Of a stretch of DNA of 64,000 bases, positions 8,947-56,395 are shown in pieces; the first letter of the stretch is position 1, and each line of letters begins with the position of its first letter. The DNA comes from Pseudanabaena sp. UWO311. GTDB lineage: Bacteria > Cyanobacteriota > Cyanobacteriia > Pseudanabaenales > Pseudanabaenaceae. Location of the stretch: assembly GCF_006937785.1 (NCBI RefSeq), contig NZ_SJEE01000007.1, positions 1 to 64,000 on the forward strand, given 5' to 3'. A program made the translations under genes and the position numbers. The notes beneath the pieces are model-generated. The model had not been told where the DNA came from, did not search any database, and saw nothing but the letters and a program-made list of their open reading frames with translations.

Positions 8947-8962
8947 ATTGGTTTCCTTAATT

Positions 8963-13471: not shown

Positions 13472-13510
13472 TAAAAAAGGGAGTGTAAATGAAGAAGGAA
13501 AACTCAAATC

Positions 13511-16849: not shown

Positions 16850-16850
16850 T

Positions 16851-34070: not shown

Positions 34071-34123
34071 TATTTATAAAAGTCTTAGTAGATTGGACAA
34101 TGAAGAATCTCAAACAGGCTGTT

Positions 34124-34164
34124 AAAACAAAAAAATGAGGTGTTTCACCTCATTTTTTTGTTTT
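34124..34164. terminator. perfect 19-bp bidirectional hairpin
   Basis: AAAACAAAAAAATGAGGTG around TTT, between the convergent ankyrin and glycosyltransferase genes. The latter's stop codon overlaps its right end. Confidence 0.8.
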
Positions 34165-35263
34165 ATCGATCGCTAATCGACTGTTCTTTTTGTGATCGCA
34201 GTTCTTGCGCCCTAATCCTTTGCCAGACCTTAAAGCAAGCATACGCCATCAATAAAGTACTAATCGCCGCATAGGTTCCCCCAGCAGGCATCCCTGAAAC
34301 CGCCATCGCGATGCTTCCGACCCAGAGGGTGAGCGCATAGATAAATAAAACTGTGAGCCTTTTTGATACACCTGCCTGCACTAAGCGATGGTGCAAATGA
34401 TTCTTACCTGCGGACATTGGCGACTCACCTCGCCTAATTCGCTGCAAAATTACCGCAGTCGCATCCACAATCGGCACTGCAAGAATCATGTAGGGCATAA
34501 TCAGTGCCACCGTCGCCACTGCCTTGACTAGACCAATGACACTCACACCTGCAAGGGTAAACCCCAAGAAATAAGCACCACCATCGCCCATAAAGATTTC
34601 CGCAGAACCTTTAGGCTTGAAGTTGTAGCGCAAGAAACCCAGACATCCCCCAGCTAGTGCCGCAGCAATCAAGGCTGCCGCAGGTTGCTGCATAAATAAA
34701 CTAGTTATTAAAATTACAGCGGCTGCGATCGTGGTTACTCCTGCGGCAAGTCCATCAAGTCCATCCAACCAATTGATTGCATTTGCCATACCCGATAGCC
34801 AAACCATCGTAATTGGCAAACTAAACCAACCAAATTTGATAATGCCAATAAATGGCACTGAGATAAAATCTATTCTCACGCCCACGCGCCATGCGGCAGC
34901 GGATACTGCTAACTGCGCAATTAATCTGGGCAATGGTGGTAAGTTAAACAGGTCATCAGCAAACCCAATTAGGAAAAAGGCTGCGCCACCGATGGTTACA
35001 CCCCAGACTTCATATTCTCTAGTTTGCGGCAATATCCCAAAGTATCCTCCTACCCAAACTAGCAATAAGGCGCTGACACTGCCCAAAAAAATTGCTACCC
35101 CACCTACACGCACAACTGGAGTTGTATGCATTTTACGATGGTTAGGTTTGTCTACTAATCCTGCTTTAAGACCAAAATGACGAATAATCGGCGTACTTAG
35201 CCACACCACGATCGCAGATACTGCAAAGGCGACCAAGTAAGGGATGGCAGTTGGATGCAGCAT
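34163..35263 (-). CDS. UDP-GlcNAc-type undecaprenyl-phosphate sugar-1-P transferase (WecA/TagO/RfbA-like)
   Basis: A 366-residue polytopic membrane protein of the MraY/WecA (PNPT) family, with about ten hydrophobic segments. Seen: GLVDKPNHRKMHTTPVVRVGG (N-terminal motif), IGFADDLFNLPPLPR (catalytic Asp-Asp), NAINWLDGLDGLAAG (NxxNxxDGxDGLxxG), GDGGAYFLGF, and the cytoplasmic HLHHRLVQAG (HHR carbohydrate-recognition motif, which suggests a HexNAc-1-P donor as in WecA). It starts polysaccharide or O-antigen lipid carriers. Not MraY itself because of the HIHH-type motif and length. Confidence 0.9.
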   Translation of the reverse strand: MLHPTAIPYLVAFAVSAIVVWLSTPIIRHFGLKAGLVDKPNHRKMHTTPVVRVGGVAIFLGSVSALLLVWVGGYFGILPQTREYEVWGVTIGGAAFFLIGFADDLFNLPPLPRLIAQLAVSAAAWRVGVRIDFISVPFIGIIKFGWFSLPITMVWLSGMANAINWLDGLDGLAAGVTTIAAAVILITSLFMQQPAAALIAAALAGGCLGFLRYNFKPKGSAEIFMGDGGAYFLGFTLAGVSVIGLVKAVATVALIMPYMILAVPIVDATAVILQRIRRGESPMSAGKNHLHHRLVQAGVSKRLTVLFIYALTLWVGSIAMAVSGMPAGGTYAAISTLLMAYACFKVWQRIRAQELRSQKEQSISDR

Positions 35264-35342
35264 TACAAGAATAAAATTAAGTGTTGGGATTGAGCAAATT
35301 TATGCTTGCAAGCATAGCACTGGATTGGCGAAACGCAACTAT

Positions 35343-35395
35343 ATTAAAGCCAATTTAAAGAGGGTGTTTAGCACCCTCTTTAAATTGGCTTTAAT
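35343..35395. repeat. perfect 24-bp hairpin between divergent genes
   Basis: ATTAAAGCCAATTTAAAGAG... arm (35343-35366) and its complement (35372-35395), loop TTTAG. It lies between the start of the WecA-type gene (minus) and rpmJ (plus), so it terminates neither. Confidence 0.6.
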
Positions 35396-35471
35396 GTCTG
35401 GTCAAAAATCATGCTAGGATTAAAAGCCGTGTCAAAAATTTTGATCATCAGTAAACGTTAGGCATTAGTTC

Positions 35472-35597
35472 ATGAAAGTTGTTAGCTCCCTCAGATCGGC
35501 AAAAACTCGCCATAAGGACTGCAAAGTTGTGCGTCGTCGCGGCAGAATTTATGTCATTTGTAAGTCAAACCCAAAGTTCAAAGCTCGTCAAGGATAA
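35472..35597 (+). CDS. rpmJ: ribosomal protein bL36, alternative (type B-like)
   Basis: A 41-residue protein, [20 protein letters not shown]... ending NPKFKARQG, recognisable as ribosomal protein L36 of the longer second type (YkgO-like), with Cys at 17 and 30 rather than the CxxC of the main rpmJ. In E. coli the alternative copy replaces the zinc-binding one under zinc limitation; for this organism that is inference. Too short for standard ORF cut-offs. It stands alone, outside any ribosomal operon, followed by a repeat and a palindromic terminator. Confidence 0.9.
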
Positions 35598-35625
35598 TCA
35601 ACGATTTTGCGTTATTTATCAAAAA
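35593..35625. repeat. 33-base dispersed repeat, copy 1
   Basis: GATAATCAACGATTTT, two variable bases, GTTATTTATCAAAAA. An equal segment at 42642-42674 differs only in the two middle bases. Each copy is followed immediately by a strong palindrome. Confidence 0.75.
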
Positions 35626-35665
35626 GGAAAAGCCCGTCATATGACGGGCTTTTCCTTTTTGATAA
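35616..35665. terminator. perfect 50-base palindrome, bidirectional terminator
   Basis: 35616-35640 is exactly complementary to 35641-35665, centred on ATAT, with AGCCCGTC cores. It lies between the convergent rpmJ and ketosynthase genes. Confidence 0.8.
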
Positions 35666-35690
35666 AGGTGAGAGATAGTACTTTGTGCTG

Positions 35691-38600
35691 TCATCTTGGA
35701 GCTTGTCGCGCTCTATGCAAGCATTTCTGTAATTTCTGCGCCAATATTTGCACCTGTGGCTCATGAAACATTGACATGTGATCGCCAGAGATAGTTTGGA
35801 TATCCAATCCACCTGCCGCTAACTTACCCCATCCCAGATCCCATTCTAGTTCTAGTGGCACAAAACCTACGCCTTGAACTGGTGAATCCTGTGTGTCAGC
35901 CCGAAACAAGGTTACCTTGTCTGGATAAGCTTGAATTATATATTTGTTCATTGCCTCTACACCAGCTTTTTCTAATGACTCCTCGATCGCAGATTGACGG
36001 AGATAAATCGGTAATTGCCATTGCATCCGTTGATAAAAACGTCGAGTAATTGCCTTTGTCCAATAGTTATACTTACCGATTAGCCATTCTTGCCATGCTG
36101 GAAATTTTTGGAAAAAATATATAAAGCCCATTTTTTTGAATTCTTGATAATGCAAAAAAATTCTCTTGTGAAAAGGTTGCCTAACTGTATTTGTGGATCT
36201 AATTTTGCCATCAAATAAAGCAAGTAAGGCGACTTTCTCACCTTGCTGATATAGTTGTTGAGACATCTCCCACACGATATGACTCCCAAAAGAATAGCCA
36301 CCAAAGAAATAAGGACCTTTGGGCTGCACTGTTCGCACAACTTGAATGTAGTCAGATGCTATTTCTTCGATGCTAGTGAGGGGAGGATGTATACCATCTA
36401 GGGCTCTTGGTTGCAGCCCATAAAAAGGCTGATCTGCACCCAAATATTTAGCAAGATCAGCGTATACGAGTACACTGCCACGAATACCAGAAACACAAAA
36501 TAAAGGAGGGTGTCTACCTTCTGTCCTAATTGGTATAAGGGTTGACCAATCTACACTTTGCTCCGATTGCTCTTGTTGATTTAGTTGGCTTAATGTCTGG
36601 GCAAGTTGAGCAATAGTTGGACATTGAAATAAAACAACAAGACTAAGATGAGATTTAAAAGCCTGTTCGACTTTGGCAAATAAGTCAACCGCAATGCTCG
36701 AAGTTCCACCGATATCGAAAAAGTTGTCATAGATGCCGATGGGTTTCATGTTGAAAACTTTTTCCCAAATAGTTGCTAATTTTTGCTCAATGCGATCTCG
36801 GGGGGCAACAAAATTGCTTTCTAAATCTTTTGCTGATTTTGTCTTGGTTGGATTCGTTATGGGTGTTTCAGCAACTGGGGGTGCTTCTGAACTATCTAAT
36901 TGAGAAGAAGGCTGCACCCAAAAAGATTGCCGCTCAAATGGATAAGATGGTAATGAGATTGGGACTAAATGAGAGCTAGCATATAAACTGCTCCAATCGA
37001 CTTGGACACCATGTACCCAAAGTTGAACAATTTGATCGCGTAAAAATTGATGTGTATTTGGTTCTATTTCTGGTAATGAAGAGAATCCAAAAGTAATTTG
37101 TTCTAGGGTAGATTCAGGATAATTTTGTTTAAGGACGCTGATCGAAATTTCTTGAGCCGAGAGAATTGACTTGAGAGACTGTTTTTTGTATTTTTTCTGG
37201 TTTGCTTTGCCACTAAATACTTGGCTTGACTGACTATCGCTAATAAATGCACTCAGTTTTTGCTGTAGGTCACCGATCTCATTTGCAATGATCGCAAGGC
37301 GATAGTTAAGCTGCGATCGCCGCATAGCCGTGACACAAATTTGGGCGATCGCGACTTCTGGATTTTCTTGCAAAAAATCATGATAATTAATTGCCATTTG
37401 CCGTAAAGCCTGTTCGGTCTTAGCGCTCAGAAGCAAAACATGGTAAGCACAATTAATCGATGAATTTGGATTGAGAATAGAAACTGAAGGTGCAGATTCT
37501 AAAACAACGTGAGCATTCGTTCCACCCATGCCAAAAGCACTTATACCTGCATATAGAGCTCCCTCTGGAGGTAAAGGAGTAAGAACGGTTGGTACTTGGA
37601 GAGATAGTTTATCAAATTCAATGTATGGATTTGGCATCTCGAAATGTAAATGGGCTGGGATTTGGCGATGGTGCAGGGTTAATGCGATCTTGATCAGCCC
37701 TGCAATTCCTGAAGCAGTTTCTGTATGACCAATATTTGTTTTCACCGTGCCAATTTGACATTTTTTATTGGCAGAATTTTCTAAGGAACTAGAGTTAAAT
37801 ACTCGTTCGATCGCTTTCATTTCCAATGCGTCGCCTATCAGCGTGCCAGTGGCGTGAGCTTCGAGATAGTGAATAGTAAGAGGATCGATCTCAGCTTGAT
37901 GATAAGCGCGACGCAATAGTGATTCCTGTGCTTGAAGATTGGGAGCAGTGAGTCCATTGCCTCGACCATTATGGTTAACTGCACTGCCACGAATCATTGC
38001 ATAAATGCGATCGCTATCCTTGATAGCTTCAGACAAGGGTTTAAGAACGACAATTCCCACACCTTCAGAACGCACATAACCATCGGCTTTTGCTGCAAAA
38101 GATTGACATCGGTGGTTTTTTGACAGTAATTCTGAGGAGCCTAGAGATATTCCTAAATTAGCAAAGATATTTATACCACCTGCCAAAGCAAGAGAACTTT
38201 GACCAGACCAAATACTTTGGCAAGCTAGATCGACAGCAACTAATGCGGATGAACAAGTAGTATTAATTGGGATACTTGCACCTTGCAAATCGAAGTAATG
38301 AGAAATGCGGTTAATGGCGATCGCATCACTTGTGCCAGTAGATATACAAGCGATTTGGTCGCCGCCTGTTTGCAAAAGTGCTTCATAATTATTTGCTGAA
38401 ATGCCAATAAACGCACCAGTTTGACTACCTCTAATTTGCTCTGGATTTATGGCGGCATCTTCTAGGGCTTCCCAACTCACTTCTAACAATAGTCGCTGCT
38501 GCGGGTCCATCGCCACTACCTCACTTGCAGAAAACCCAAAAAAATCTGCATCAAATTGATCGACTCCATCCAAAAATCCGCACCATCGTCCATTTATGGC

Positions 38601-38768
38601 TTCAAGCGCAGCGTCATCAAAGCTGCTAAAAGGATACAGTTGACGGCGATCTCTAGGCATGGGTGCGATCGCATCTACGCCATCGCGCAGTAATTGCCAG
38701 AATGCTGCAACTCCTCTAGCCTGTGGAAAACGGCAGCCAATACCAATAATTGCGATCGGTTCTCTCAT
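35691..38768 (-). CDS. KS-ACP-TE polyketide synthase without acyltransferase
   Basis: A 1025-residue protein starting MREPIAIIGIGCRF; the ATG overlaps the P450 stop as ATGA. Domains: ketosynthase (about 1-425) with Cys 172 (NTTCSSALV), His 305 (EAHATGT) and His 348 (NIGHTE); a KS-to-AT linker (about 440-520); then, with no AT domain, a remnant linker QLWVHGVQVDWSSLY ... LPSYPFERQSFW that normally follows AT; a carrier domain (about 655-730) with Ser 689 in DNFFDIGGTSS; and a thioesterase (about 745-1025) with Ser 825 in GGYSFGSH and His in SGDHMSMF. Probably extends and releases an ACP-bound acyl chain. Malonyl loading must come in trans, for example from FabD, or the KS does not extend. Confidence 0.92.
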   Translation of the reverse strand: MREPIAIIGIGCRFPQARGVAAFWQLLRDGVDAIAPMPRDRRQLYPFSSFDDAALEAINGRWCGFLDGVDQFDADFFGFSASEVVAMDPQQRLLLEVSWEALEDAAINPEQIRGSQTGAFIGISANNYEALLQTGGDQIACISTGTSDAIAINRISHYFDLQGASIPINTTCSSALVAVDLACQSIWSGQSSLALAGGINIFANLGISLGSSELLSKNHRCQSFAAKADGYVRSEGVGIVVLKPLSEAIKDSDRIYAMIRGSAVNHNGRGNGLTAPNLQAQESLLRRAYHQAEIDPLTIHYLEAHATGTLIGDALEMKAIERVFNSSSLENSANKKCQIGTVKTNIGHTETASGIAGLIKIALTLHHRQIPAHLHFEMPNPYIEFDKLSLQVPTVLTPLPPEGALYAGISAFGMGGTNAHVVLESAPSVSILNPNSSINCAYHVLLLSAKTEQALRQMAINYHDFLQENPEVAIAQICVTAMRRSQLNYRLAIIANEIGDLQQKLSAFISDSQSSQVFSGKANQKKYKKQSLKSILSAQEISISVLKQNYPESTLEQITFGFSSLPEIEPNTHQFLRDQIVQLWVHGVQVDWSSLYASSHLVPISLPSYPFERQSFWVQPSSQLDSSEAPPVAETPITNPTKTKSAKDLESNFVAPRDRIEQKLATIWEKVFNMKPIGIYDNFFDIGGTSSIAVDLFAKVEQAFKSHLSLVVLFQCPTIAQLAQTLSQLNQQEQSEQSVDWSTLIPIRTEGRHPPLFCVSGIRGSVLVYADLAKYLGADQPFYGLQPRALDGIHPPLTSIEEIASDYIQVVRTVQPKGPYFFGGYSFGSHIVWEMSQQLYQQGEKVALLALFDGKIRSTNTVRQPFHKRIFLHYQEFKKMGFIYFFQKFPAWQEWLIGKYNYWTKAITRRFYQRMQWQLPIYLRQSAIEESLEKAGVEAMNKYIIQAYPDKVTLFRADTQDSPVQGVGFVPLELEWDLGWGKLAAGGLDIQTISGDHMSMFHEPQVQILAQKLQKCLHRARQAPR

Positions 38769-39994
38769 GATGCTAAAAATTTTACAGGTAAAGTTTTCAA
38801 ACCCCTCAAAGTGATGCTTTCCCGCCACTGAAGTTCAGGATTGCTCTCATTTTTTAATCTTAAATGAGGATAGCGCTGGATCAAACTCCCGATCGCAATC
38901 TGACCCTGAACCCTTGCTGAAGCTGCGCCTAAGCAGTAATGTAGCCCACCGCCAAATGGCAAATTATAATTACGACGATGAAAATTAATTTGATCGGGAT
39001 CGGGGAAAATTTCGCGATCGCGATTTGCCGCACCGAGACACAAAATCACTTTATCGCCAGTATGAATAGTTTTACCTCCATACTCAAAATCTTCAGTAGC
39101 AAGGCGGGCAATCACCTGCACAGGGCTATCAAATCGCATTAACTCTTCGATCGCAGCGGGGATCAAATTCGGGTTTTGCTGTAATTCGGCTAAAGCTTGA
39201 GGATGCTGTAAAAGGGCGAGAACGCTATTACCGATCAGGCTTTTAGTGGTTTCTTGTCCCACAATCAACAGCATGATACAAAAGCCTAAAATTTCATCTT
39301 CATTCAGTTGTGTGCCTTGCTCCCTAGCCTCTAGGAGTTGTCCCAATAGTCCTGATGGTTTCGTAGCCATCAGGTTAATCAGATATTCTCGCGCCTCGAT
39401 CGCAATTTCGTTTTGTTTCTGATAGCCACTTAGGGACATCGGTTGATCGAATACAAAAAACAAATCGTAAGACCAACGCATTAGCTTGTCATGATCTTCC
39501 AATGGCAAACCAAGAATTTGCGTGACGCTCATTGCAGGGAGAGGTTCGGCAAAATCAATCATAATGTCGATTTCGCCATTATTTTGACGAGCTTTCTGCT
39601 CTGCTTGCACGAGTATGCGATCTACTAATTCTGCGATCGCAGGTCGTCTGGTTTCGATCATGCTTGGGGAAAAAGATTTGGCAACTAAACTTTTAAGTTT
39701 GGTATGGTGCGGTGGTTCTAGAAAAAACAGCCAGTTTTCGATCGTTTGCGCCAAGGCTGTAAAATTGCCCTGCTTAAGGTATTGGCTTTTTTGTCTTAAC
39801 CGCATTGGTAGATCGTCAACGTGCAGTTCTGGGGCTTTGAGTAATGCATCAACATCGTGATGGCGGGTGACTACCCAAGCTTGCATAAAACTCCAATGAA
39901 TTGGATCGTTATCACGTAACCATTCATAAATGGGATAGGGATTAGCATGAAAATCTGGAGAAAATGGATCGAACCTGAATTTGTTTGTTGTCAT
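38765..39994 (-). CDS. cytochrome P450
   Basis: A 409-residue soluble bacterial-type P450. Seen: I-helix segment IVGQETTKSLIGN (oxygen-activating GQETT), K-helix ExxR in EELMRF, ...R..FPDPDQINFHRR, and the haem loop NLPFGGGLHYCLGAASARV with thiolate Cys 354. It lies between FAAL-ACP and KS-ACP-TE, translationally coupled to the latter by ATGA. The likely substrate is the acyl chain carried by one of the cluster's carrier domains, to be hydroxylated, epoxidised or desaturated. Needs separate ferredoxin and reductase, not encoded here. Confidence 0.95.
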   Translation of the reverse strand: MTTNKFRFDPFSPDFHANPYPIYEWLRDNDPIHWSFMQAWVVTRHHDVDALLKAPELHVDDLPMRLRQKSQYLKQGNFTALAQTIENWLFFLEPPHHTKLKSLVAKSFSPSMIETRRPAIAELVDRILVQAEQKARQNNGEIDIMIDFAEPLPAMSVTQILGLPLEDHDKLMRWSYDLFFVFDQPMSLSGYQKQNEIAIEAREYLINLMATKPSGLLGQLLEAREQGTQLNEDEILGFCIMLLIVGQETTKSLIGNSVLALLQHPQALAELQQNPNLIPAAIEELMRFDSPVQVIARLATEDFEYGGKTIHTGDKVILCLGAANRDREIFPDPDQINFHRRNYNLPFGGGLHYCLGAASARVQGQIAIGSLIQRYPHLRLKNESNPELQWRESITLRGLKTLPVKFLAS

Positions 39995-40020
39995 GTAAGT
40001 ACCCGTACAAAATTAATTAT

Positions 40021-40069
40021 CCAAATTTATAAGGTTTTGCCCCTGCGGGGTGCGATCTTGCAAATTTGG
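40021..40069 (-). promoter_or_regulatory. intercistronic hairpin between FAAL and P450
   Basis: CCAAATTT (40021-40028) pairs with AAATTTGG (40062-40069), with inner GCCCC-TGC-GGGGT. In the 80-base gap between two genes of the cluster; may adjust expression of P450 and KS relative to FAAL. Confidence 0.4.
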
Positions 40070-40074
40070 GTTTG

Positions 40075-42120
40075 TCAATTCAACTCAATTAAATATGCTG
40101 CTAACTCCGTGATTGTGGGATATTCCCAAAATAAAGTTGGCATTAGTTTTTGCTCAAGCCAATCAGATAAGTCGGCGGTGAGATTGAGCAAAACTGATGA
40201 ATCAAGTCCGAAGCGAGAAATCGCTTCATCGATATCAATCTCATCTGGATCAAGATTGGCGAGTTGACTAAGACGATTCACGATCCATTCAGCGATGGAT
40301 TCTTCCGTCAATTCAGCTTTAAGTGTAATCGGGACAGAAGATTCTAAATTTTCTGCCTTTGGTAGTTTCCATTGACCAACTATATCAAGGCTATTTGCTA
40401 AAAACTGTTGTCGGCAAGCCTGACGCTGAATCTTGCCGCTTGAGGTTTTGGGAATACTTGCGGGTTTGATCAGCGCGATCGCATATACCGAAATTTCATG
40501 TTGTTCCGATACCGCTTGTCTGATTGCTGTGATGATTCCCTCAACATCGAGTTCCCGTAATGCAGTTCTTTCTACTTCTTGCATAATCACCAAGCACTCT
40601 TGACAATCAACATCGATCGCAAAAGCTGCACCAGCATCAATCCGCAATGCAGGATGACTGTTTTGAACAGTCAATTCAATATCTTGCGGATAGTGATTGC
40701 GACCCCAAAGGATCAGCAAATCTTTGAGCCGTCCTGTCACAAAAAGTTCTCCATCGCGCATGAAGCCTAAATCGCCAGTACGAAGCCAATTCACTTGGTC
40801 GTTGGATTGACTATCTACAAGTTGAGCTTGAAATGTGGCTCTAGTCACTTCTGGTTGCTGCCAATATCCTAGAGCCACACTACTGCCTGACAACCAAATT
40901 TCACCAACTTGATCGGGTGGGCATTTTATATGTGTTTCTGGATTAGCGATCGCAATTTTAGTATTCAGCCAAGCTTTGCCGACCCCGACAAAATGTTTTG
41001 CATTTGGATCAGTATCAGCCACGGTTACAACTTGTTTTTGTTCAAGCGCTGGGGATGCGATCGCGCAATAAACTGGCTCAGCATTAACTACACCTCCCGA
41101 AATCATCAGCGTTGATTCTGCCATGCCGTAGCAGGGATAGAAAAATTTTGACTGGAATCCTAATGGCTGAAATTTGCTAGCAAATTGCTCTAATGTTGAT
41201 CGCCTAATTGGTTCTGCCCCTGTATAAGCACTTTGCCAACAACTTAGATCGATTTGCGTTTGATTAATTTGTTCTGGACTAATTTTGCGGACACACAACT
41301 CATAGCCTTGATTTGGTCCCCCACAATGAGTTGCTCGATAGTGCGAAATTGCCTCTAGCCAGCGCATTGGCTTTTGCAAAAAAGCCCCTGGCGACATTAA
41401 TACCCCCCCAAAGCCCGTATATATGGGCTGAATAATGCTATCTATTAGCCCCATGTCATGAAAGTTTGGCAACCAACTCACCGAAACACTACTTTGGTCT
41501 AGCTCAAAAGCTGTCTGAATATAAGCAGAATTATGTATGAGATTTTGATGACTGACCATCACGCCCTTAGGATGCCCCGTCGAGCCAGAGGTATATTGCA
41601 AAAAGGCAAGACTGTCTGGCTTTAGCTCTGGGCGTTGCCACTGCATTGCCAAATCGGGTGACAGGCGATCGCTAGCCATCCATTGCACAACTGGCAAATC
41701 TGGAAAACTCAACCATGACTGCTGCAAACTATCTAATAGTGCTGATGTCGTCAGTACCACAGCAGGTTGAGCATCGTTAACAATTGCCCTTAGGCGCGAC
41801 TGCATTTGAGCCCGTTTAGGAGGTGGAACAGGAACCGCGATCGCGCCTGCATAAAGGCAACCAAAAAAAGCACTAATAAATTCAAGTCCTGATGGATAGC
41901 ACAATAATACTCGTGAACCTGCTGGTACTAGATCTTGCAGTTGCGCAGCAACTGCTCTTGCTTGTAAATCCAGATCTTGATAACTCATAGGAAATACATC
42001 TAACTCTCCGTCCACTAAAAATGTAAACGCATTTTGACTGGACTGATTTTGGGATCGCAATTGGAGACAATCTACTAAATCAGAAAAATTAGTACGGCTC
42101 ATCTTATGAGTTACCTGCAT
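40075..42120 (-). CDS. fatty acyl-AMP ligase fused to an acyl carrier protein
   Basis: A 681-residue two-domain protein. The ANL domain (about 1-580) has the P-loop motif LQYTSGSTGHPKGVMVSHQN, GMAESTL, W-LRTGDLGFM and the C-terminal Lys in PKTSSGKIQRQA. The domain is of the FAAL subclass (long-chain acyl-AMP made, then passed to a carrier protein rather than CoA), consistent with the FAAL-like N-terminal form YPSGLEFISAFFGCLYAGAIAVP and the fused carrier. The carrier domain (about 600-681) has FGLDSSVLLNLT with the phosphopantetheine Ser. First gene of the minus-strand cluster with P450 and KS-ACP-TE. Confidence 0.93.
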   Translation of the reverse strand: MQVTHKMSRTNFSDLVDCLQLRSQNQSSQNAFTFLVDGELDVFPMSYQDLDLQARAVAAQLQDLVPAGSRVLLCYPSGLEFISAFFGCLYAGAIAVPVPPPKRAQMQSRLRAIVNDAQPAVVLTTSALLDSLQQSWLSFPDLPVVQWMASDRLSPDLAMQWQRPELKPDSLAFLQYTSGSTGHPKGVMVSHQNLIHNSAYIQTAFELDQSSVSVSWLPNFHDMGLIDSIIQPIYTGFGGVLMSPGAFLQKPMRWLEAISHYRATHCGGPNQGYELCVRKISPEQINQTQIDLSCWQSAYTGAEPIRRSTLEQFASKFQPLGFQSKFFYPCYGMAESTLMISGGVVNAEPVYCAIASPALEQKQVVTVADTDPNAKHFVGVGKAWLNTKIAIANPETHIKCPPDQVGEIWLSGSSVALGYWQQPEVTRATFQAQLVDSQSNDQVNWLRTGDLGFMRDGELFVTGRLKDLLILWGRNHYPQDIELTVQNSHPALRIDAGAAFAIDVDCQECLVIMQEVERTALRELDVEGIITAIRQAVSEQHEISVYAIALIKPASIPKTSSGKIQRQACRQQFLANSLDIVGQWKLPKAENLESSVPITLKAELTEESIAEWIVNRLSQLANLDPDEIDIDEAISRFGLDSSVLLNLTADLSDWLEQKLMPTLFWEYPTITELAAYLIELN

Positions 42121-42184: not shown

Positions 42185-42217
42185 AATTAGTGGGGTGGCG
42201 AAGCCACCCCACTAATT
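42185..42217. terminator. perfect 15-bp hairpin with GAA loop
   Basis: AATTAGTGGGGTGGC and complement around GAA. Upstream of the FAAL gene, thus ahead of the lipid cluster. Confidence 0.6.
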
Positions 42218-42362: not shown

Positions 42363-42430
42363 TAGGCTTCTTATCTCACTCTTACCTGAAAACGGATGAA
42401 CTCTTAGGAACTTAGTTGGAGTGCCTCATG

Positions 42431-42646
42431 CTAAGGGGATACTATAGTACAGGCGATCGCACTTCTTAAATATTGGGTATTAGCTATGAGCCAATTTGGA
42501 ACATTATCATTAGATATAGCTGTATCTGCTCCATCCACAAATCCATTGATCTGAATGTTGTTAATCGCTATAATCCTTTTCACTAGATTAAGCCCTAGCA
42601 CACCTGTACCAGTAGTCGTGATTTGATAATCTTCAATTAAAGATAA
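42431..42646 (-). pseudogene. remnant of a DUF11-type surface protein gene
   Basis: No start codon. On the minus strand an open stretch ending at TAG 42433-42431 reads ...LGLNLVKRIIAINNIQINGF then VDGADTAISNDNVPNWLIAN. It is clearly related to LVKRITRINNIDITGFDDG near the end of the intact 1397-residue protein next to it, including the 'NxxW(L/P)' part that follows. A TGA lies just upstream in frame. So this is a decayed copy of the last unit, left by duplication or loss of a paralogue. Confidence 0.75.
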
Positions 42647-42674
42647 TCAACGATTTTATGTTATTTATCAAAAA
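42642..42674. repeat. 33-base dispersed repeat, copy 2
   Basis: Copy of 35593-35625, differing at two bases. Followed at once by the terminator palindrome of the DUF11 gene. Confidence 0.75.
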
Positions 42675-42704
42675 CAAAAAGCGGCGCGATCGCGCCGCTT
42701 TTTG
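42675..42704 (-). terminator. 30-base perfect palindrome, terminator of the DUF11 operon
   Basis: CAAAAAGCGGCGCGATCGCGCCGC... ; self-complementary and centred on a GCGATCGC (HIP1) site, 5 bases after the last gene's stop, with T5 on each strand. Confidence 0.8.
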
Positions 42705-42708
42705 TTGT

Positions 42709-45700
42709 CTAACGAACTCTTACTCTAAATCTCACAAATCCATAGGAGGTTGGAGGTGTTCCAGCGGCTGTAGCATTGGGGACAACAGGGAATGTGGGCG
42801 CTCCTGTGGTGCGGGTGACATTAACAGCCACAATACCGTTGGCATTGCTGGTAATTGAAGCGGCAGGATTATTAGGATCAGGGCATCTCTCTAGTCCTGC
42901 TGCCGCAGGTACTTCGCCTAAAGCAGGATCGTAGTATCGACCGCGATCGGGTAAATCGTTAGCACCTGTTAGAAATCGGCGATCGCCTAATGTCGTACCT
43001 GTCTGTAAGACAATACCTAGATCCACAGATGATCCGCCGTCAGTGGGAGTAGAACCATTAAAAGCATTGGCTATAAAGCTAGTATTAGCAGGAACTGGAT
43101 CGCAAATCCTTAAATTGCCTGCATTGCTTTGACCGCGATTTAGGTAATAGATTGTGTACTCCACATCATCCTGAGGTCGTACATTAGGTTGACTGATCAC
43201 TCCACGCAAAGAATCGGAAGTTGGACTTGGCCATCTAGCATCATTGTCATCTGTACCAGGACCATCGTCAAAACCAGTAATGTCAATGTTGTTAATTCGC
43301 GTAATCCGCTTGACCAAAATTACTTCGGGAGGTAGGACGGTAGATGTAATGACTAAGTCCGCAGTTGCGGGACCATTGGAAGTTGTCGTACCACCGCCAA
43401 TAGTGGTTTGTATGGTTGCTTGCACATTTGCAGTAGGGATAGTGTTGGTATAGGTATTTGCAATATTGGAAACCACATCTATCGCCGCAGTGCAGGTCGT
43501 ATTGAAAGGCAGCTCAAAGCCTTGCAAGGTAAAGGTTGTTTCTCCTCCGCCCAATGCTGGGTTAAACACGCCATTGGTACAAGTGGTAGTGGCATTTGGC
43601 GTACCTGCTACCCGCACGTTTGCTGGTAAGTCATCTGTAAACCGAATATTGTTCAAAGGACCACCCAGCTCGCCTGTAGTTTGACGGTTTTGGATGGTTA
43701 CAGTCAGACGGCTAATCTGACCACCTGCAACCGAGTTTGGGAGAAAATCCTTGGAAACGTTAAGAGCAGGCAATGCGTTAAGGGTCGCTGATGCAGCGGC
43801 TGAGTTAGTAGTACCCTCACGAGTAACAATGCTATTGGCTGGCAATGTATTGGTACGGTTACCTGCCGTATTCCGAGTAGTACGGATAGTGATCGTACAG
43901 GTTGCGCCAGCATTGAGAGTACCGCCGACTAAGCCAAATTCGTTGACTCCCAAGGTTGCAGCACCTACAAAACCTGCTGGTCTAGCCCCTCCTGGCAATA
44001 ATACCGTCCCACCACAAGTAGTTGTGGCAGTAGGAGTAGGAAATACTAAAATTTCCGTAGCCATCGTGTCTACAAACGCCAAATTTGTCGCGGTAATACC
44101 ACCCACTCCAGGATTAGCGATCGTGATTGTTAAGACCGAGGGATCTCCGACAGAGTTTAATGCATTTGGGGCAAATGATTTATTGATCGTCAAGTCATTG
44201 ATAACACGATTGAGGGTTCCACTAATTACTGCAGGATTAGAGAAGCTTTGTGCAGTTGTAACAGAGTTTACTGGCAGTGTGTTTGTAAAAGTATTACCAC
44301 CTGTACCATCAATCGTGACATCAAAGGATACTGTACAAATCCCATCAACACCACCCACTGCTGCGGGTAACGTGCCACCTGAGAAGGTAAAAGTCCTAGC
44401 ACCGATCGCGCTAAAAGCACCACCTGCACAAGTAGTCTGAAAGTTAGGAACAGTAGCAATAATCGTATTCGTCTGCACCCAGCTATCCGTAAAAGTCAGA
44501 TTAGTGAGAGCAATGTCTTCTGTGTTATTGAATTGAATTGTGGCTCTGGATGTACCATTGGCACTTACAGAAGGAGATTGAAAGGTTTTCGTACCACTGA
44601 GAGGCGAAATCACTACTAAGTTAGCTGTGGGCAGAGTGGCTGGCTCACCTTCATTATTGCTAAACGCGGTTGGAGTATTGCTATAGGTTTGGGGAGTGGG
44701 GAAGGCGGCAAAGGTTTGAACTATCTCAATTACATCAAATCGCAGTAGGCAGCTAGCACTAGCAGCAATACCACCTCCAGTGAGGGAAACACTCGTACTA
44801 CCCGCAATTGGTGTAAACGTTCCACCGCAAGTATTGGATGAGTTAGGAGGAGTGGCAACCTGTAAATTGGCAGGTAGAGGATCAGTGATTGCTACATTCG
44901 TGAGAGGTTCTGCGACACCCGCCAGACTGCGGCGGTTATTGGTGATCGTAATGGTTACTTGAGAAGGTCTACCACGACCAACTGGAGTGGGAGCAAAGAC
45001 CTTGGCAACGTTAACCCGCGAAGCGGCTGTCAATCTACCTTCAGTATTAGTGACACCATTGCTATCTAAACCGTCATTGTTAGCAATAGAGTTATTGGCA
45101 ATAATGTTGTCAAAGGTAGTACCTACAGGAGTAACTGATGGAGCAAAGACATCAAAAGAGAATGAACAAGTGGCTCCTGCTGCGATCGTTCCACCTGATA
45201 AGATAACCGAAGTACTACCTGCGGTTGCTGTAAGTGTTGGCGCACCACAGCCAGTGGAAGTGGGATTTGGCGAAGTAGCAACCACTAGTTGCTGCCCACC
45301 GCCCGTTGGTAGATTGTCAGTATAGTTAACGCCTGTCGCTGGAATAGGAGATCTATTTTGTACTGTGATCGTAACGCGAGTAGTGCTTCCAGGCGCAATT
45401 AAGTTAGGGCTATAGGATTTAGCAACATTAAGTCCCGCAATGACACTAAAGGGATTAGTCGCATTAGCAGGTGGTACACGTACTTGATCGTTACTAAAGT
45501 TGGTAATGCGATCAATTATGTTAGTTCCCGTATTCTCTGCTTCAGGGAGAGGAAGATTTCCGATCGCCCCAGTTATAGTACGAACATCTACTTGGATCGT
45601 GCAAGTTCCGAGAGCGTTAGTAACAGGATCAGATGCAGGGACGATCGCAGCAGCCCCCAAATTAGCAGTGTTAAGAGTAAAGGTAGTAGAACCAGCAGTG

Positions 45701-46902
45701 GGTTGAGTTGCCCAAGGCGTATTTACTCCACCTGCAATACAGGTAGTCCGAGCATTTGGTGTTGGAGCGATTTCCAGTAATGCGGGTAAAGGATCGGTAA
45801 CGACCAGACCTGTAAGTTGGGAACCACCATTGGAAACTGTAATCGTAATTGTCCTAACAGCCCCTTCAGGCAGATTATTCGCTAGCCCTGCTTTAGCGAT
45901 CGTAACTGCGGTCTGCACGGTAAGATCAGCGCTCGGAGCGTTGCTATTGCTGATCCGATTCTGGGTGTTTAGGGTATTAACGGGAATAGTATTTGTGTAA
46001 CTTCCACCGACGGCAGAGGTGACAGGGAAGGTAATTGTACAAGAGCCATTAGCAGGAATTGTGCCGCCCGTGAGCTGGATTGAGGTGTTGCCCAGTATGC
46101 TGGTAGCAGTCCCGCCTGCGCAAGTCGTAGTTGGTAGTGGAGCACCCACGCGAGTATCAACAGACAGTTGCGAAGGTAAGGCTGGTAAGGCATCAACTAA
46201 AGTGGGTGGAACGGTTGTACCAGTCAGTGGGAAGTCGTTGGGGTTATCCACTGTAATCGTGACTAGCGATCGTCCGTCCCCAGGGATAGTATTGGGAGCA
46301 AAAGCTTTATTGAGAGTTGCCGCAGCAAAAGTGCGAACCTGAAGAGTGGCACTTGTAGGATCAGCGTTCGTACCAACACTAGTGACTAAATCACCAGCAT
46401 TAATCGTGTCGGTATGGTTACCAGAAACAAAGCCGCGCACAGGAAACTCGATAATACATTGTCCAGGTGCACCCGCAGGGATTGTAAATCCAGAGATGCT
46501 ATAAGAACCTGATGCACCACCCCCACCGCCAGAGTTAGGTTCAGTACCAGCGATAAGATTCACAGTCCCAGCACCACCACAGGTATTTGCAGTAGGTGTA
46601 GCACTCGTTATGGTGATTGGACCAGGAGCACCAACTAAGGTATGGTTCAGCGATGTGATCGTGATTGCTGCACCTGTGGAGTTTCGCAAAGTCACGCGAT
46701 AGACTGAGTCAGAACCGGGAATAACATTGTTATTGGGAGTAAAACTATTTAGAATGGCGATCTGGGAGGATGCTTGGGCAAATGATGGTGGAGGCAGCAG
46801 CCACAGGTGCTGTGTGATTACAAAGACAAAGCTCAGAAGAAATAGACTAAGGTTTCGTAGAAGCCGATTGACAGCAGGGATTGGGGTAAATGTTCTCCTC
46901 AT
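42709..46902 (-). CDS. giant DUF11-repeat surface protein
   Basis: A 1397-residue exported protein. N-terminal basic/hydrophobic signal (LLRNLSLFLLSFVFVITQHLWLLP, cleaved near SFAQA). About eight DUF11-type beta-sandwich repeats of 120-145 residues follow, each with a K-x-F/Y-x-P opening (LNKAFAPNTIPGDG, VAKSYSPNLIAPGS, VAKVFAPTPVGRG, INKSFAPNALN, VSKDFLPNSVAGG), a TDxLP, an xxxTTCxGG stretch and an SGGTxxxxxxCTIxFxV end. Each repeat has two Cys, so intradomain disulfides are likely. A terminal unit is divergent (LVKRITRINNIDITGF ... VRFRVRVR). Probably an extended stalk or filament on the cell surface. Last gene of the operon. Not a recognised named protein. Confidence 0.82.
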   Translation of the reverse strand: MRRTFTPIPAVNRLLRNLSLFLLSFVFVITQHLWLLPPPSFAQASSQIAILNSFTPNNNVIPGSDSVYRVTLRNSTGAAITITSLNHTLVGAPGPITITSATPTANTCGGAGTVNLIAGTEPNSGGGGGASGSYSISGFTIPAGAPGQCIIEFPVRGFVSGNHTDTINAGDLVTSVGTNADPTSATLQVRTFAAATLNKAFAPNTIPGDGRSLVTITVDNPNDFPLTGTTVPPTLVDALPALPSQLSVDTRVGAPLPTTTCAGGTATSILGNTSIQLTGGTIPANGSCTITFPVTSAVGGSYTNTIPVNTLNTQNRISNSNAPSADLTVQTAVTIAKAGLANNLPEGAVRTITITVSNGGSQLTGLVVTDPLPALLEIAPTPNARTTCIAGGVNTPWATQPTAGSTTFTLNTANLGAAAIVPASDPVTNALGTCTIQVDVRTITGAIGNLPLPEAENTGTNIIDRITNFSNDQVRVPPANATNPFSVIAGLNVAKSYSPNLIAPGSTTRVTITVQNRSPIPATGVNYTDNLPTGGGQQLVVATSPNPTSTGCGAPTLTATAGSTSVILSGGTIAAGATCSFSFDVFAPSVTPVGTTFDNIIANNSIANNDGLDSNGVTNTEGRLTAASRVNVAKVFAPTPVGRGRPSQVTITITNNRRSLAGVAEPLTNVAITDPLPANLQVATPPNSSNTCGGTFTPIAGSTSVSLTGGGIAASASCLLRFDVIEIVQTFAAFPTPQTYSNTPTAFSNNEGEPATLPTANLVVISPLSGTKTFQSPSVSANGTSRATIQFNNTEDIALTNLTFTDSWVQTNTIIATVPNFQTTCAGGAFSAIGARTFTFSGGTLPAAVGGVDGICTVSFDVTIDGTGGNTFTNTLPVNSVTTAQSFSNPAVISGTLNRVINDLTINKSFAPNALNSVGDPSVLTITIANPGVGGITATNLAFVDTMATEILVFPTPTATTTCGGTVLLPGGARPAGFVGAATLGVNEFGLVGGTLNAGATCTITIRTTRNTAGNRTNTLPANSIVTREGTTNSAAASATLNALPALNVSKDFLPNSVAGGQISRLTVTIQNRQTTGELGGPLNNIRFTDDLPANVRVAGTPNATTTCTNGVFNPALGGGETTFTLQGFELPFNTTCTAAIDVVSNIANTYTNTIPTANVQATIQTTIGGGTTTSNGPATADLVITSTVLPPEVILVKRITRINNIDITGFDDGPGTDDNDARWPSPTSDSLRGVISQPNVRPQDDVEYTIYYLNRGQSNAGNLRICDPVPANTSFIANAFNGSTPTDGGSSVDLGIVLQTGTTLGDRRFLTGANDLPDRGRYYDPALGEVPAAAGLERCPDPNNPAASITSNANGIVAVNVTRTTGAPTFPVVPNATAAGTPPTSYGFVRFRVRVR

Positions 46903-46908
46903 GATCTA

Positions 46909-49005
46909 TTAGTTTCCTTTTCCTTCGATTTGAATATCTTCCTGTTGATCTAGTAGCTGAATTTCCACCCCTTGCATATTTTGGAGGAAAAATTCTACCC
47001 GCCGATCGCGAGCATAGTTAGTGATGTTATTTTGATTGGTTAGCCTTTGGCGCTCTCCACGGGTGCGAATGGTGATCCTTTCTGGGCTAATTCCTTGACG
47101 GCGTAAATAGTTACTAACAGAGCGACTACGTCTGAGCCCTAAATCTAAGTTATAGGCATCGTCGGCTCTAGGGTCAGTATGTCCGACTAACTCAACAGAG
47201 ATTGTGGGATATTGCTTGAGGACTACTACGAATTTGTCGATGATCTTAGCGGAGACAGGACTGATGATATCTTCATCGAGGGCAAAGTGAACTTGGCGAG
47301 GCAGTTGCAAAGCTGCGGGTGGCTCTGGTGGAGTCTCAACAATGACGGGTGGCGGAGTCGTACATTGCGGTTGAGAGCGAGTTTCGGGTGATGCAGTTGG
47401 AATTGTGGTATTGAGATCGCTAATGCGAACGGGGCGAGCAGGCTCTGATGTACCAAACTCAAGATCGGTAGCGATCGCGCTGAGGGTATCACCAGCTTTC
47501 AGGTTATCTAAGCTAGTGCTGAAGTTGCCTTTAGCGTCAGTTTTGAGTGTGGCGAGCAACTCATATAAACCACCACCGCGCAATCGATAGAGATCAATTT
47601 CTGTATTGGGGTCAGCGAGCCCATCGATGCCAACCTTGCCATCAATGAGATGAAAGCGATCAGCCCGAAATTCTGGAGCATCGATCGCTCCATTTGCCGT
47701 GTCTACCCGCCGAAAATGGGAATCACGTTTAGGGTTACGCCCATCTCCAGTGCGGAAATCTTTTTCACTAACATTGCGACGAGAGATTAAATCAATATCT
47801 AAACCTTCAACGAATTGAAATTGATTTTGACGAATCAAATTGCGATCGCTAGCAGGAAAAGCTGCCACGGTTACACCCGATCCCGCTTGATTACTAATGC
47901 GATTATTGCTAACGATATGTCCGCGTCCCATTAAGTAAATAGCAGAGCGGCGAAAGAAACGGGCGTTAAAACTCACAGTGTTATCTTGAACCTCAATTGC
48001 ACCTTCAGGCTTAAATAAAAATACCGCCGAACCTGCATTACCACAAATAATATTTGAGCGCACCTGCATTCCTGCAATTCTTCCTTCAAGCCGAATTGCA
48101 TCAGGCATTCCATCAAAACCATTGCCCTCAATTACATTCTCTTGAATGACAGAGTTGCGGGTGTCAACGGCGGTGATAATGCCACTGCCTTCATGATTGG
48201 CAATCCGATTACGGCGAATATTTGCTTCAACACCATGAAATAGATATACCCCAAAAGCAGAAGGCTGAGATGGCATCGATCCATCAGGAGGAACTCCTAG
48301 CCAATTATTTTCGATCGTCACACGAGCCGCAGGGTGATCGCGATCGTAAAAGGAAAAGTCTTTGGCAGGCTGCTGCTGTTGGGTCGTGTCTGGTGGTGGT
48401 AAGCGATGGGAAATGAAGATATCGCCTGGAGGAGTAACAGCGGTTTCAAAGTGCCGTGAGCTAAATCCGTAGATACTCAGACCACGAATCAAGACATCAT
48501 CGCTGGTGATGGTCAAACCCCGAAAAATTTCTGCTCCAGCCGCAGGAGTAATCGTTACTACTGGGACTGGGATCGGAATCTCTTGAGCAAAGCTTGTTTC
48601 TTCTTTATAAGCGGGATGAGTTGTTCCATCAATCTCCATTGGCACAAGTAGCGGGGGCAAAGCACTTGTTAGCTGAATCTTAGGAATCTCAAGATTTTGA
48701 AATCGAATCTGGTGGCGACCTTTACGGGGCAAGACTTGAGCAAGTTCAGCAGGAGTGAGTTGATCGGTGCGGAGAGTCCCATTGGCGATCAGAATTGCTT
48801 CACGCAGAGTCAATTCGCGATCGCGCAAGTTGTCATCTCGATTGCTATTAACGTTAATCGTTAAAAATGATGGAAGTGATGATGGCGCTGGGTTGTCTGG
48901 TAAAGCCTGTGGCAATGTCTGCGCCATCGTGAGCAACTGCTCATTTAACGACAGTGCTAGAAACTCTGCCATCATCAAAATAACGAGGGTAAGTCTTCTC
49001 TTCAT
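46909..49005 (-). CDS. beta-helix protein with C-terminal OmpA-like domain
   Basis: A 698-residue exported protein. Signal peptide (about 1-29, LTMAQ); a CSLREA-type opening (ELTLREAILIANG, about 65-80); a right-handed parallel beta-helix (about 150-420, repeats such as NVIEGNGFDGM, NIICGNAGSAVFL, NNRISNQAGSGVTV); a linker with IPT-like carbohydrate or Ig region; and a C-terminal OmpA-like peptidoglycan-binding domain (about 560-690) with VELVGHTDPRADD and LRRSRSVSNYLRRQGI. The ATG overlaps the stop of the 1672-residue gene as ATGA. Probably tethers the surface structure to peptidoglycan. Six bases precede the next gene. Confidence 0.85.
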   Translation of the reverse strand: MKRRLTLVILMMAEFLALSLNEQLLTMAQTLPQALPDNPAPSSLPSFLTINVNSNRDDNLRDRELTLREAILIANGTLRTDQLTPAELAQVLPRKGRHQIRFQNLEIPKIQLTSALPPLLVPMEIDGTTHPAYKEETSFAQEIPIPVPVVTITPAAGAEIFRGLTITSDDVLIRGLSIYGFSSRHFETAVTPPGDIFISHRLPPPDTTQQQQPAKDFSFYDRDHPAARVTIENNWLGVPPDGSMPSQPSAFGVYLFHGVEANIRRNRIANHEGSGIITAVDTRNSVIQENVIEGNGFDGMPDAIRLEGRIAGMQVRSNIICGNAGSAVFLFKPEGAIEVQDNTVSFNARFFRRSAIYLMGRGHIVSNNRISNQAGSGVTVAAFPASDRNLIRQNQFQFVEGLDIDLISRRNVSEKDFRTGDGRNPKRDSHFRRVDTANGAIDAPEFRADRFHLIDGKVGIDGLADPNTEIDLYRLRGGGLYELLATLKTDAKGNFSTSLDNLKAGDTLSAIATDLEFGTSEPARPVRISDLNTTIPTASPETRSQPQCTTPPPVIVETPPEPPAALQLPRQVHFALDEDIISPVSAKIIDKFVVVLKQYPTISVELVGHTDPRADDAYNLDLGLRRSRSVSNYLRRQGISPERITIRTRGERQRLTNQNNITNYARDRRVEFFLQNMQGVEIQLLDQQEDIQIEGKGN

Positions 49006-54020: not shown

Positions 54021-55525
54021 TATTTTTGCCCTCCCACACCTTTAAATGCTGGAGTTACAGCAAAATTAGCTCTAGCCAAACCACCTGGGGATAGTCTCAC
54101 AAGTCGAGACTGACTGTTGCGTTCAATAAAGTATAAGTTGGGAGCTAGGGTATACCCTGACAAAGAACTTATATCTAATACCAAAGTTCGCGCACCTGGA
54201 ATGACATTAGCAACTGAATATAGTCCATTTGCATCGGTAACAATACGGTTGCCATCATCCATGAATACGACAGCATCAGGAATGCCTGGTTCGCCATTCT
54301 GTTGTTCTCCATCAAAGTTTTTATCCACAAATACTCTTCCAATTAAGGTGGCACAATCAGTAACGATGCCAGGACGGATTCGCATCGTAAAAAGGGCGGG
54401 CCCATCGCGAACGGTATAATTGTTGTCCGCTCTAATTGCCGAAACCGCAGCGGAATTTCGGCCTGTTCCCCTCACAGCGTCGGGAGTAACAGTTACGGCA
54501 TAGGCAACCAAAGCACTTATGTTCCCAGCAGGTATCTGTGCTTGGAGCGCAAAGGATAAATTATTGCCGTTTTCCTGAACTACAACTGGGACAGGATTTC
54601 CATTAAGAGCTGCCCTTGCAGAATTTTGTACATATCGCAAGCCGACAGGCAAAGAATCTGTAATAACTGGGTTAATTAAAGTCGTAGTTGTGAGGTTTTT
54701 GATCGTCAGACGATAGGATGCAATATCTCCTGGCTCAGCAGCAGCGCGATCACCTGTTTTGATGATTTGGATCTCGCGAGCCTCGCACACAGATAGAGCT
54801 GAGTTAAGCTGCAATGCGATCAGTGACAAAGCATTCAGGGCAGCATTGTTGACAACTACGTTTTCAGTAACCGAGAAAACTCCGTCAATTCCAATGGGTC
54901 TGCCATCCACTGCTGTAGCTGTATATGGCAAGAGCAATCCATTTTGTGTGCCAATTACGATCCTAATTCGCCGTTGTCCGAGTCTAAGGCTAGGAGGGGG
55001 ATTCACAACTAGGATATAGGTGCTGCCTGGAGCTCTTTGCACTCCATTTAACAAGAAGTTATATATCCCGCGCCTACCATTTACGGCTGTATTTGTAATC
55101 GAATATGGATTGACGTTTAAGATGTTAGGGGCAAGTCCTTCTGGCAGGACTGTGTTTGGCGGATTAGTTGGGGTTAAAGCAATAGGTGCGCCGATTTCGC
55201 CACCACTCCCAATTGCTTGATATAAGCCCACAGTAAAACCAGTATAGTCAGCAAACTCCTTGCCACCACAATCGAGTATCTGTCCTAGAGGATCGATGAG
55301 GCGATCGCCATTTATAACGTTTAAGGGCGAAGATGCTTGAACTGGAGTCGCTACACCTGGAGTGCCATAGCTACCGCTTGCGCGATTTTGAATTCCAAAG
55401 GTTCGCGCTTGACCGAAAGCAGCGCCATTCGCTAAGCAAAGACATAACGCTAAACTTCCTAGCCATAACCAGAAAAAGAAAGCATATCGCTTGATTATTT
55501 TTTTGAGCGATCGCATATTCATCAA
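54020..55525 (-). CDS. DUF11 plus SdrD_B/CnaB-like secreted protein
   Basis: A 501-residue exported protein with a signal peptide (about 1-38). The N-terminal domain opens with FGIQNRASGSYGTPG, akin to PILNRASGTYVDP in the 884-residue protein. A DUF11-type domain lies at about 260-390 (REIQIIKTGDRAAAEPGDIASYRL, DSLPVGLRYVQNS), followed by an SdrD_B/CnaB-like domain at about 400-460 (GRVFVDKNFDGEQQNGEPGI, VTDANGLYSVANVIPGARTL). The stop and next start are joined as TAATG, so it is translationally coupled to the barrel protein. Some homologous proteins elsewhere carry all these parts in one chain (from memory). Confidence 0.8.
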   Translation of the reverse strand: MMNMRSLKKIIKRYAFFFWLWLGSLALCLCLANGAAFGQARTFGIQNRASGSYGTPGVATPVQASSPLNVINGDRLIDPLGQILDCGGKEFADYTGFTVGLYQAIGSGGEIGAPIALTPTNPPNTVLPEGLAPNILNVNPYSITNTAVNGRRGIYNFLLNGVQRAPGSTYILVVNPPPSLRLGQRRIRIVIGTQNGLLLPYTATAVDGRPIGIDGVFSVTENVVVNNAALNALSLIALQLNSALSVCEAREIQIIKTGDRAAAEPGDIASYRLTIKNLTTTTLINPVITDSLPVGLRYVQNSARAALNGNPVPVVVQENGNNLSFALQAQIPAGNISALVAYAVTVTPDAVRGTGRNSAAVSAIRADNNYTVRDGPALFTMRIRPGIVTDCATLIGRVFVDKNFDGEQQNGEPGIPDAVVFMDDGNRIVTDANGLYSVANVIPGARTLVLDISSLSGYTLAPNLYFIERNSQSRLVRLSPGGLARANFAVTPAFKGVGGQK

Positions 55526-55577
55526 AGTTCTATCACTCTAGATATTCAATCGGGATAAATTAGTTTTAATCATGGGT

Positions 55578-55610
55578 GATGATGCACCGTAAAAGGCACG
55601 GTGCATCATC
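55578..55610 (-). promoter_or_regulatory. intercistronic hairpin without T run
   Basis: GATGATGCACCGT and complement around AAAAGGC, between the 192-residue and 501-residue genes. No T-tract follows on the minus strand, so it fits mRNA stabilisation or processing better than termination. Confidence 0.45.
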
Positions 55611-55614
55611 TTAA

Positions 55615-56193: not shown

Positions 56194-56286
56194 TATAGGC
56201 TCCAAAACTTCGATAAATTCTTGTCTGTTTGTCTATATCTAAAAAAAGAATCGATTCTCTTTTCTTGCTCTCTTGAGCTGTATAGG

Positions 56287-56380: not shown

Positions 56381-56395
56381 CGATAGACTCAGATG

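Follow-up and report, generated by a model that had tools for sequence, protein, structure and literature searches.

We analyzed a stretch of 64,000 nucleotides from Pseudanabaena sp. UWO311 (contig NZ_SJEE01000007.1, positions 1 to 64,000), here called the window. Three neighboring genes on its reverse strand encode a fatty acyl-adenylate ligase (FAAL) fused to an acyl carrier protein (ACP), a cytochrome P450, and a ketosynthase (KS) protein with an ACP and a thioesterase (TE), from which the acyltransferase (AT) is missing. Below, sampled genomes are labeled G (the host genome is G000) and the loci of this analysis L.

The FAAL-ACP gene (positions 40075-42120) encodes a protein of 681 amino acids with Pfam matches to AMP-binding (residues 42-420), a DIP2-like AMP C-domain, and PP-binding (residues 611-677); the motif places the carrier serine at Ser641. 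Its best solved relatives are 7r7g ("Polyketide synthase"), 3kxw, FadD32, and 3pbk ("Fatty Acyl-Adenylate Ligase"), and from this kinship we predict that the product is a FAAL-type adenylating enzyme fused to an ACP that has its serine. The P450 (38765-39994, 409 amino acids) has a Pfam p450 match, the haem motif FGGGLHYCLG, and an ExxR motif; the closest solved structures by sequence are PksS (4yzr) and a biotin-biosynthesis P450 (3ejb). The KS gene likely starts at the ATG at 38768, which overlaps the P450 stop codon as ATGA, and not at the GTG at 38828 of the mechanical open reading frame (ORF). With this start the gene covers 35691-38768 and encodes 1025 amino acids, and residues are numbered accordingly (the numbering of the longer mechanical ORF minus 20).

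Pfam finds in the KS protein a KS, a KS C-terminal extension, a CurL/RhiE-type linker, a PP-binding domain, and a TE, with no match to the AT family PF00698; ketoreductase (KR), dehydratase (DH), enoylreductase (ER), and sulfotransferase (ST) domains are absent from it as well. The KS domain (37638-38762) was placed by Pfam and motifs, the carrier domain (36591-36785, Ser690) by its PP-binding match and motif, and the TE (35739-36506) by its Pfam match and the motifs GYSFG (Ser826) and GDH (His997). Both the KS-side linker (residues 443-505) and the post-AT motif LPSYPFERQSFW (residues about 580-618) are retained. Between them lie about 74 residues (506-579; positions 37032-37253, from alignment with intact and relic ATs), compared with about 280 for a normal AT. 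The original prediction, made from the letters of the DNA, had described three same-strand genes with the last two coupled by ATGA, a FAAL with its own carrier, a P450, and a KS-carrier-TE protein whose AT was gone and whose flanking linkers remained; the coupling, the domains, and the kept linkers are all borne out, and the positions agree.

The catalytic residues are all present: Cys172, His305, and His348 in the KS, Ser826 and His997 in the TE, and the carrier serines Ser690 and, in the FAAL protein, Ser641. An inactive KS had been a concern of the original prediction; the window KS keeps Cys-His-His. In pairwise comparisons of the window with G005 and G016 and of these two with each other, the ratio of nonsynonymous to synonymous substitution rates (dN/dS) lies at 0.06-0.10 over the P450 gene, 0.11-0.16 over the FAAL gene, and 0.19-0.23 over the KS gene; within the KS protein it is 0.17-0.19 for the KS domain and 0.24-0.33 for the KS-ACP linker. 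Purifying selection acts on each of the three genes in these Pseudanabaena genomes, and such ratios, for the whole genes and for the linker, make pseudogene status unlikely. A decaying remnant without a product would fit the deleted AT and the narrow spread of this form, since 3 of 26 genus genomes (its own, G005, and G016) hold this KS protein, matched along its length with identities of about 80% or higher, but purifying selection on all three genes and the presence of the active residues make this extremely improbable. We rejected an assembly artefact as the cause of the AT deletion because the same AT-less architecture recurs in G005 and G016.

The original prediction had left open whether the KS descends from cis-AT or trans-AT enzymes. 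We placed it in an IQ-TREE tree of 95 rows, kept from 198 KSs of at least 380 residues (score at least 345, or from loci judged trans-AT). Loci L002-L007 and L032 were excluded before the tree as shorter stretches or duplicates of longer loci; near copies and duplicates (L045, L037, L051, L047, L049, L064) and a short KS (L029) were dropped. The trans-AT labels (L065, L067, L072, L083, L093) are our own judgement from AT-less multi-KS proteins, and the bootstrap is not fully settled (correlation 0.966). The window KS falls on the cis-AT side (76 rows, support 98/97), apart from the rows labeled trans-AT. It belongs to a clade of six (100/98; the window, G005, G016, G001, G344, and G177), and no intact AT occurs in any of the six. 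The sister group consists of the AT-less KSs of G047, G066, and G103 (90/90, unstarred), and the next group (92/70, unstarred) holds AT-bearing cassette KSs (G333, G135, G296, G349) together with FAAL-fused KSs of Planctomycetes and Anaerolineae. Trans-AT descent is rejected by this tree, despite a trans-AT entry, 7zma, as the first solved-structure match (scored over two stretches), followed by CurL with 457 bits and PksJ with 398 bits.

Remains of the AT are still visible in relatives. The ATs of G001 and G344 are truncated alike: GNGTG or GYGTG stands in place of the active-site GHSxG, and they lack the segment that carries the histidine motif. Outside the six-member clade, the AT of G296 has lost about 75 internal residues but keeps the serine and histidine (Pfam 154 bits in two pieces). 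The sequences identify the window KS as a cis-AT ketosynthase of a FAAL/P450-associated clade that later lost its AT and whose relatives keep dead remains of it. The AT-less KS of G191 sits among AT-bearing ones in the tree, which makes at least two losses of the AT.

The cassette is not isolated. We searched 388 genomes of the class, an even draw from a larger group, for the P450 with a cut-off of E<=1e-80 and found it in 19 (4 of the 38 genomes in the order). A FAAL lies nearby in 15 of these 19, and FAAL, P450, and KS occur together in 13, with the P450 between the FAAL-ACP and KS genes; extra genes intervene in G177, and a further KS in the G047 group. The fetched stretches of G191, G226, G248, and G278 contain no FAAL (those of G226 and G278 are short, at contig ends), and G138 and G302 have FAAL and P450 with no KS in the stretch. 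Seventeen of the 19 have a KS, that of G278 being cut by the contig end, which leaves 16 loci for comparison of the AT. It is intact with serine and histidine motifs in three (G349, G135, G333), damaged in four (the internal deletion of G296, the truncated ATs without serine of G001 and G344, and a 54-position match below cut-off in G226), and absent in nine (the window, G005, G016, G177, G047, G066, G103, G191, and G248, the last with a KS split across two frames). G001 carries a fourth related cassette in the genus comparison: its KS protein has an AT relic, an ACP, and a TE, and is accompanied by a P450 and, close to a contig end, by the 3' portion of a FAAL-ACP.

Several of the related loci have features of their own. 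The G001 locus (L114) has, between its KS and P450 genes, two short P450-like frames (16384-16911) that may be what is left of a second, decayed P450, and the G138 locus (L148) has two full-length P450s in tandem after the FAAL-ACP. One cluster in G047 (L115) combines a FAAL, desaturases, two AT-less KSs (one with ACP-TE), P450s, a methyltransferase, and ACPs; the KS, P450, ACP, and FAAL of G103 (L153) and G066 (L154) match those of this cluster. The cassette KS module of G296 (L150, 4827-9494), with its internally deleted AT, is a possible intermediate of AT loss. G191 (L146, 10858-17595) encodes an AT-less KS-DH-ER-KR-ACP-aminotransferase module; its genome has one FabD-size AT, and the flanking 9 kb or so to each side contain no FAAL. 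In G177 (L142, 5908-8142) an AT-less KS-ACP lies near NRPS-like (nonribosomal peptide synthetase) and glycosyltransferase genes and is probably a non-elongating transfer KS. G037 (L158) encodes a cis-AT-type AT-less KS-DH-MT-ER-KR-ACP (3960-11621) and a second KS-DH with no AT match in the part read (11570-14401), with a FAAL beside them; judging from this genome, AT loss in cyanobacteria may be wider.

We modeled residues 1-643 with AlphaFold (25-row alignment, mean pLDDT 82.6). The predicted fold has a compact flanking subdomain after the KS. Among the 50 matches listed, KSs taken to be trans-AT, partly from their entry titles, such as those of bacillaene and Brevibacillus BGC11, match the model over nearly its full length (619-655 alignment columns, one 712), and KS-AT didomains match over 516-554 columns (one CurL chain over 816). 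By sequence, again among the matches listed, identity is 43% to the cis-AT CurL versus 29-36% to the trans-AT KSs. The KS and linker thus seem to have a trans-AT-like fold after AT loss and a cis-AT sequence.

An elongating module without an AT needs malonyl from elsewhere, and the original prediction had proposed loading in trans, for example by FabD. The host genome encodes a single PF00698 protein, of 294 amino acids and FabD-sized, on another contig; we call it a putative FabD throughout, from its size and from being alone in the AT family. The cluster and its surroundings contain no discrete AT, and a trans-AT gene elsewhere was sought and not found in the host, in nine further genomes with the cassette or AT-less kin, or in 26 Pseudanabaena genomes. 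Among the nine, a single full-length AT (296-315 amino acids) was found in each of G001, G177, G344, and G191, and G005, G016, G226, G248, and G047 have further ATs besides the FabD-size one, all in frames of at least 632 amino acids. A FabD-size match occurs in 25 of the 26 genus genomes (none in G006, which is 82% complete), and the 26 PF00698 matches of other size in these genomes all lie in frames of at least 632 amino acids, with no second discrete AT found. Given the loss of the module's AT and a genome in which no further AT-family protein was detected, loading by FabD in trans is the best reading of this part of the proposal, and the loading step itself is predicted. We count for it that the AT-less reducing module of G191, built to process an elongated chain, lies in a single-AT genome. 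FabD is reported as the trans-AT of the AT-less barnesin NRPS-PKS (polyketide synthase) (PMC13096860). Malonyl could instead come in trans from the AT domain of another PKS in the cell, or the KS could load its own carrier. G005 and G016 do have other PKSs with AT domains, but no PKS-embedded full-length AT is found in G000, G001, G177, G344, or G191, where self-loading alone is left, and we find this supply very improbable. The host genome encodes one phosphopantetheinyl transferase-family protein (221 amino acids).

Taken together, we predict a three-gene pathway in which a fatty acid is activated, oxidized, extended once with malonyl supplied by FabD, and released by the TE, and assign it a probability of roughly 0.57. 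From its family, the FAAL would adenylate a free fatty acid and load it on its own ACP. The P450 may then oxidize the acyl chain on this ACP, as suggested by gene order and by its nearest solved relatives: PksS and a biotin-biosynthesis P450 whose substrates are carrier-bound acyl chains. The KS would take the chain on Cys172, the housekeeping FabD would place malonyl on the Ser690 carrier in trans, and the KS would condense once. Since the KS protein has no KR, DH, or ER, the product would stay a beta-keto thioester, two carbons longer. The TE may release an oxidized beta-keto acid, or a tetronate or dihydropyranone lactone if the P450 hydroxyl is at C2 or C3 of the starter.

Several points weigh against this pathway. 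A single PF00698 match is common in the genus (16 of 26 genomes), so a single AT allows FabD loading without pointing to it specifically. Most of the genomes are drafts (the host has 61 contigs and is 99.98% complete), so an AT could have been missed, and the FabD identity is putative, drawn from size and sole presence. The FAAL, P450, and KS distances correlate only moderately (Spearman 0.48, 0.47, 0.23); the link between the P450 and this KS is therefore not a strict one. Finally, G177, in the same clade, has a KS with Cys-Asn-Asn, in which both catalytic histidines are replaced (EANGSAT, NIGNA) and the cysteine is kept; this AT-less KS probably no longer condenses.

The G177 enzyme gives a likely living example to the alternative, already raised in the original prediction, that the KS only transfers the oxidized acyl chain from the FAAL ACP to the second carrier, from which the TE releases an oxidized fatty acid or lactone. 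No malonyl would be needed and AT loss would be neutral, which suits a clade with the AT lost or dead in six of six members. Transfer without elongation thus seems realized in this relative, but the histidine loss of a KS0 is not seen in the window, where His305 and His348 are kept; Cys-His-His is kept in five of the six (the window, G005, G016, G001, G344), the KS domain is constrained among the three closest (dN/dS as above), and a KS and a second carrier would be superfluous for mere release. We consider transfer alone unlikely for the window. The KS could also condense two FAAL-loaded chains head to head, as NocG reportedly does for nocuolin A, to give an alpha-alkyl beta-keto acid without malonyl and with no need for an AT. 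This is improbable, because the window KS is of the modular type I, the closest relatives in which an AT can be read belong to KS-AT modules, and PpyS is a different KS type. PpyS is a described head-to-head condensing class (PMC4578411).

The pathway with FabD-supplied malonyl predicts a simple class of oxidized, once-extended fatty acids in Pseudanabaena. Beyond this locus, intact, internally deleted, dead and truncated, and absent ATs are all seen among living relatives of the window KS, in one family, and some of these genomes show no AT-family member besides a protein of FabD size. The origin of AT-less modules and the takeover by FabD are thus directly testable with small proteins. It is about an even bet that we see here a second independent origin of trans-AT-type assembly, in which a cyanobacterial FAAL/P450-fed cis-AT lineage shed its ATs because the housekeeping FabD loads the carriers, and the remaining linker keeps the compact shape of a trans-AT KS.

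The TE end of the KS protein also occurs on another synthase. At the same chromosomal place, G011 has a C-A-PCP-TE NRPS module instead of KS-ACP-TE. By blastn, window positions 34099-36511 (two adjoining pieces) match L116 of G011 (7138-9685) from a glycosyltransferase gene through the TE, and the DNA homology ends at 36511, at residue about 752, the ACP/TE junction. The TE is 69% identical over 278 residues to the G011 NRPS TE and the carrier only 42%, and the TE of G001, from the same KS clade, is 32% identical to that of the window. The likeliest cause of a TE end common to different synthases is a swap of the synthase ahead of a resident TE, or a swap of the TE itself. A thioesterase here keeps its place, with an NRPS or a PKS ahead of it depending on the relative. 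Near the KS stop, short sequences (35570-35692) match both ends of the L116 NRPS gene, partly inverted.

Upstream of the FAAL gene is a hairpin of 15 pairs followed by a partly T-rich tail (42185-42217), a weak terminator-like candidate from a terminator scan that, with the promoter scan, performs near chance in this region (7 terminator-like sites found, 6.8 expected). It may separate the FAAL unit from the gene at 42709. This palindrome and the sequences at 35570-35692 are perhaps small palindromic repeats at the borders of the locus. Adjoining the cassette, window positions 42378-59050 encode large repeat proteins (DUF7933, OmpA/beta-helix, DUF11, DUF7925, and a 1672-amino acid protein without a Pfam match). 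The FAAL gene of G005 and G016 has another large protein as its neighbor (GEVED in G005), which ends about 75 bp away, and the 3' DNA of its gene matches the intergenic window positions 42378-42636, so the neighbor of the FAAL gene seems to have been replaced.

Among known systems, Pks13/FadD32 of mycobacteria share the FAAL partner, the KS and TE, and the solved-structure matches. Their KS and TE serve one condensation, and they are not known to involve a P450. Pks13 holds ACP1-KS-AT in one protein (from entry titles), unlike the window, and on domain make-up we set aside a Pks13-like reading, as well as one modeled on the tenuazonic acid synthetase cited in PMC11356792. The original prediction knew of no described cluster with the FAAL-ACP/P450/KS-ACP-TE make-up, and we found none in the literature searched, a comparison outside which the nostovalerolactone cluster and the Galica FAAL survey lie. 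That search also returned no paper on an AT-less, FabD-loaded cyanobacterial PKS; the cassette is not described in the excerpts of PMC8406139, PMC3098273, PMC8406957, PMC5333925, PMC12184294, and PMC7014017, and the terms P450, AT-less, and trans-AT are absent from the excerpted text of a 2025 FAAL review. The table of that review lists the nostovalerolactones of Nostoc as lactones from a FAAL-containing cluster with a C8 substrate (hypothetical), and this cluster could be nearer to the window than the systems compared here. Speaking against novelty, a PKS said to lack an AT has already been noted in the same genus, in Pseudanabaena galeata CCNP1313, although the same section gives AT motifs (GHSI and HAFH); this system is NRPS-fed (C-A-PCP-KS...-aminotransferase), and the paper mentions no FAAL or P450 (PMC11356792).

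Hapalosin HapA/HapB and olefin synthase (Ols) use a FAAL-ACP fusion to supply a type I KS with a fatty acid (PMC4558948; PMC11837247), and the window KS groups with the KSs of FAAL-associated modules. By their descriptions, HapB is KS-AT-CM-KR-ACP and Ols is KS-AT-KR-ACP followed by ST-TE (PMC4558948; PMC11837247), whereas the window has no AT, KR, or ST and has a P450 between FAAL and KS; an olefin synthase reading, which calls for a KR and a sulfotransferase-TE, was set aside on this make-up. Nocuolin NocH/NocG resemble the window in a FAAL-ACP that feeds a ketosynthase, and differ by description in that NocG joins two acyl chains (PMC11837247). The barnesin protein BrnF is likewise an AT-less KS module with a TE; as described, its system is NRPS-fed with KR and DH, in contrast to the FAAL-fed window with a P450 and no reduction (PMC13096860). 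The window has the KS lineage and Cys-His-His of cis-AT modular type I PKSs without their integrated AT. With trans-AT PKSs (bacillaene, Brevibacillus BGC11) it shares the missing integrated AT and a KS-linker fold that aligns nearly end to end, and it differs from them in a KS that is cis-AT by sequence and tree and in having no discrete AT in the cluster. We infer that the locus works like a trans-AT module without belonging to the trans-AT lineage.

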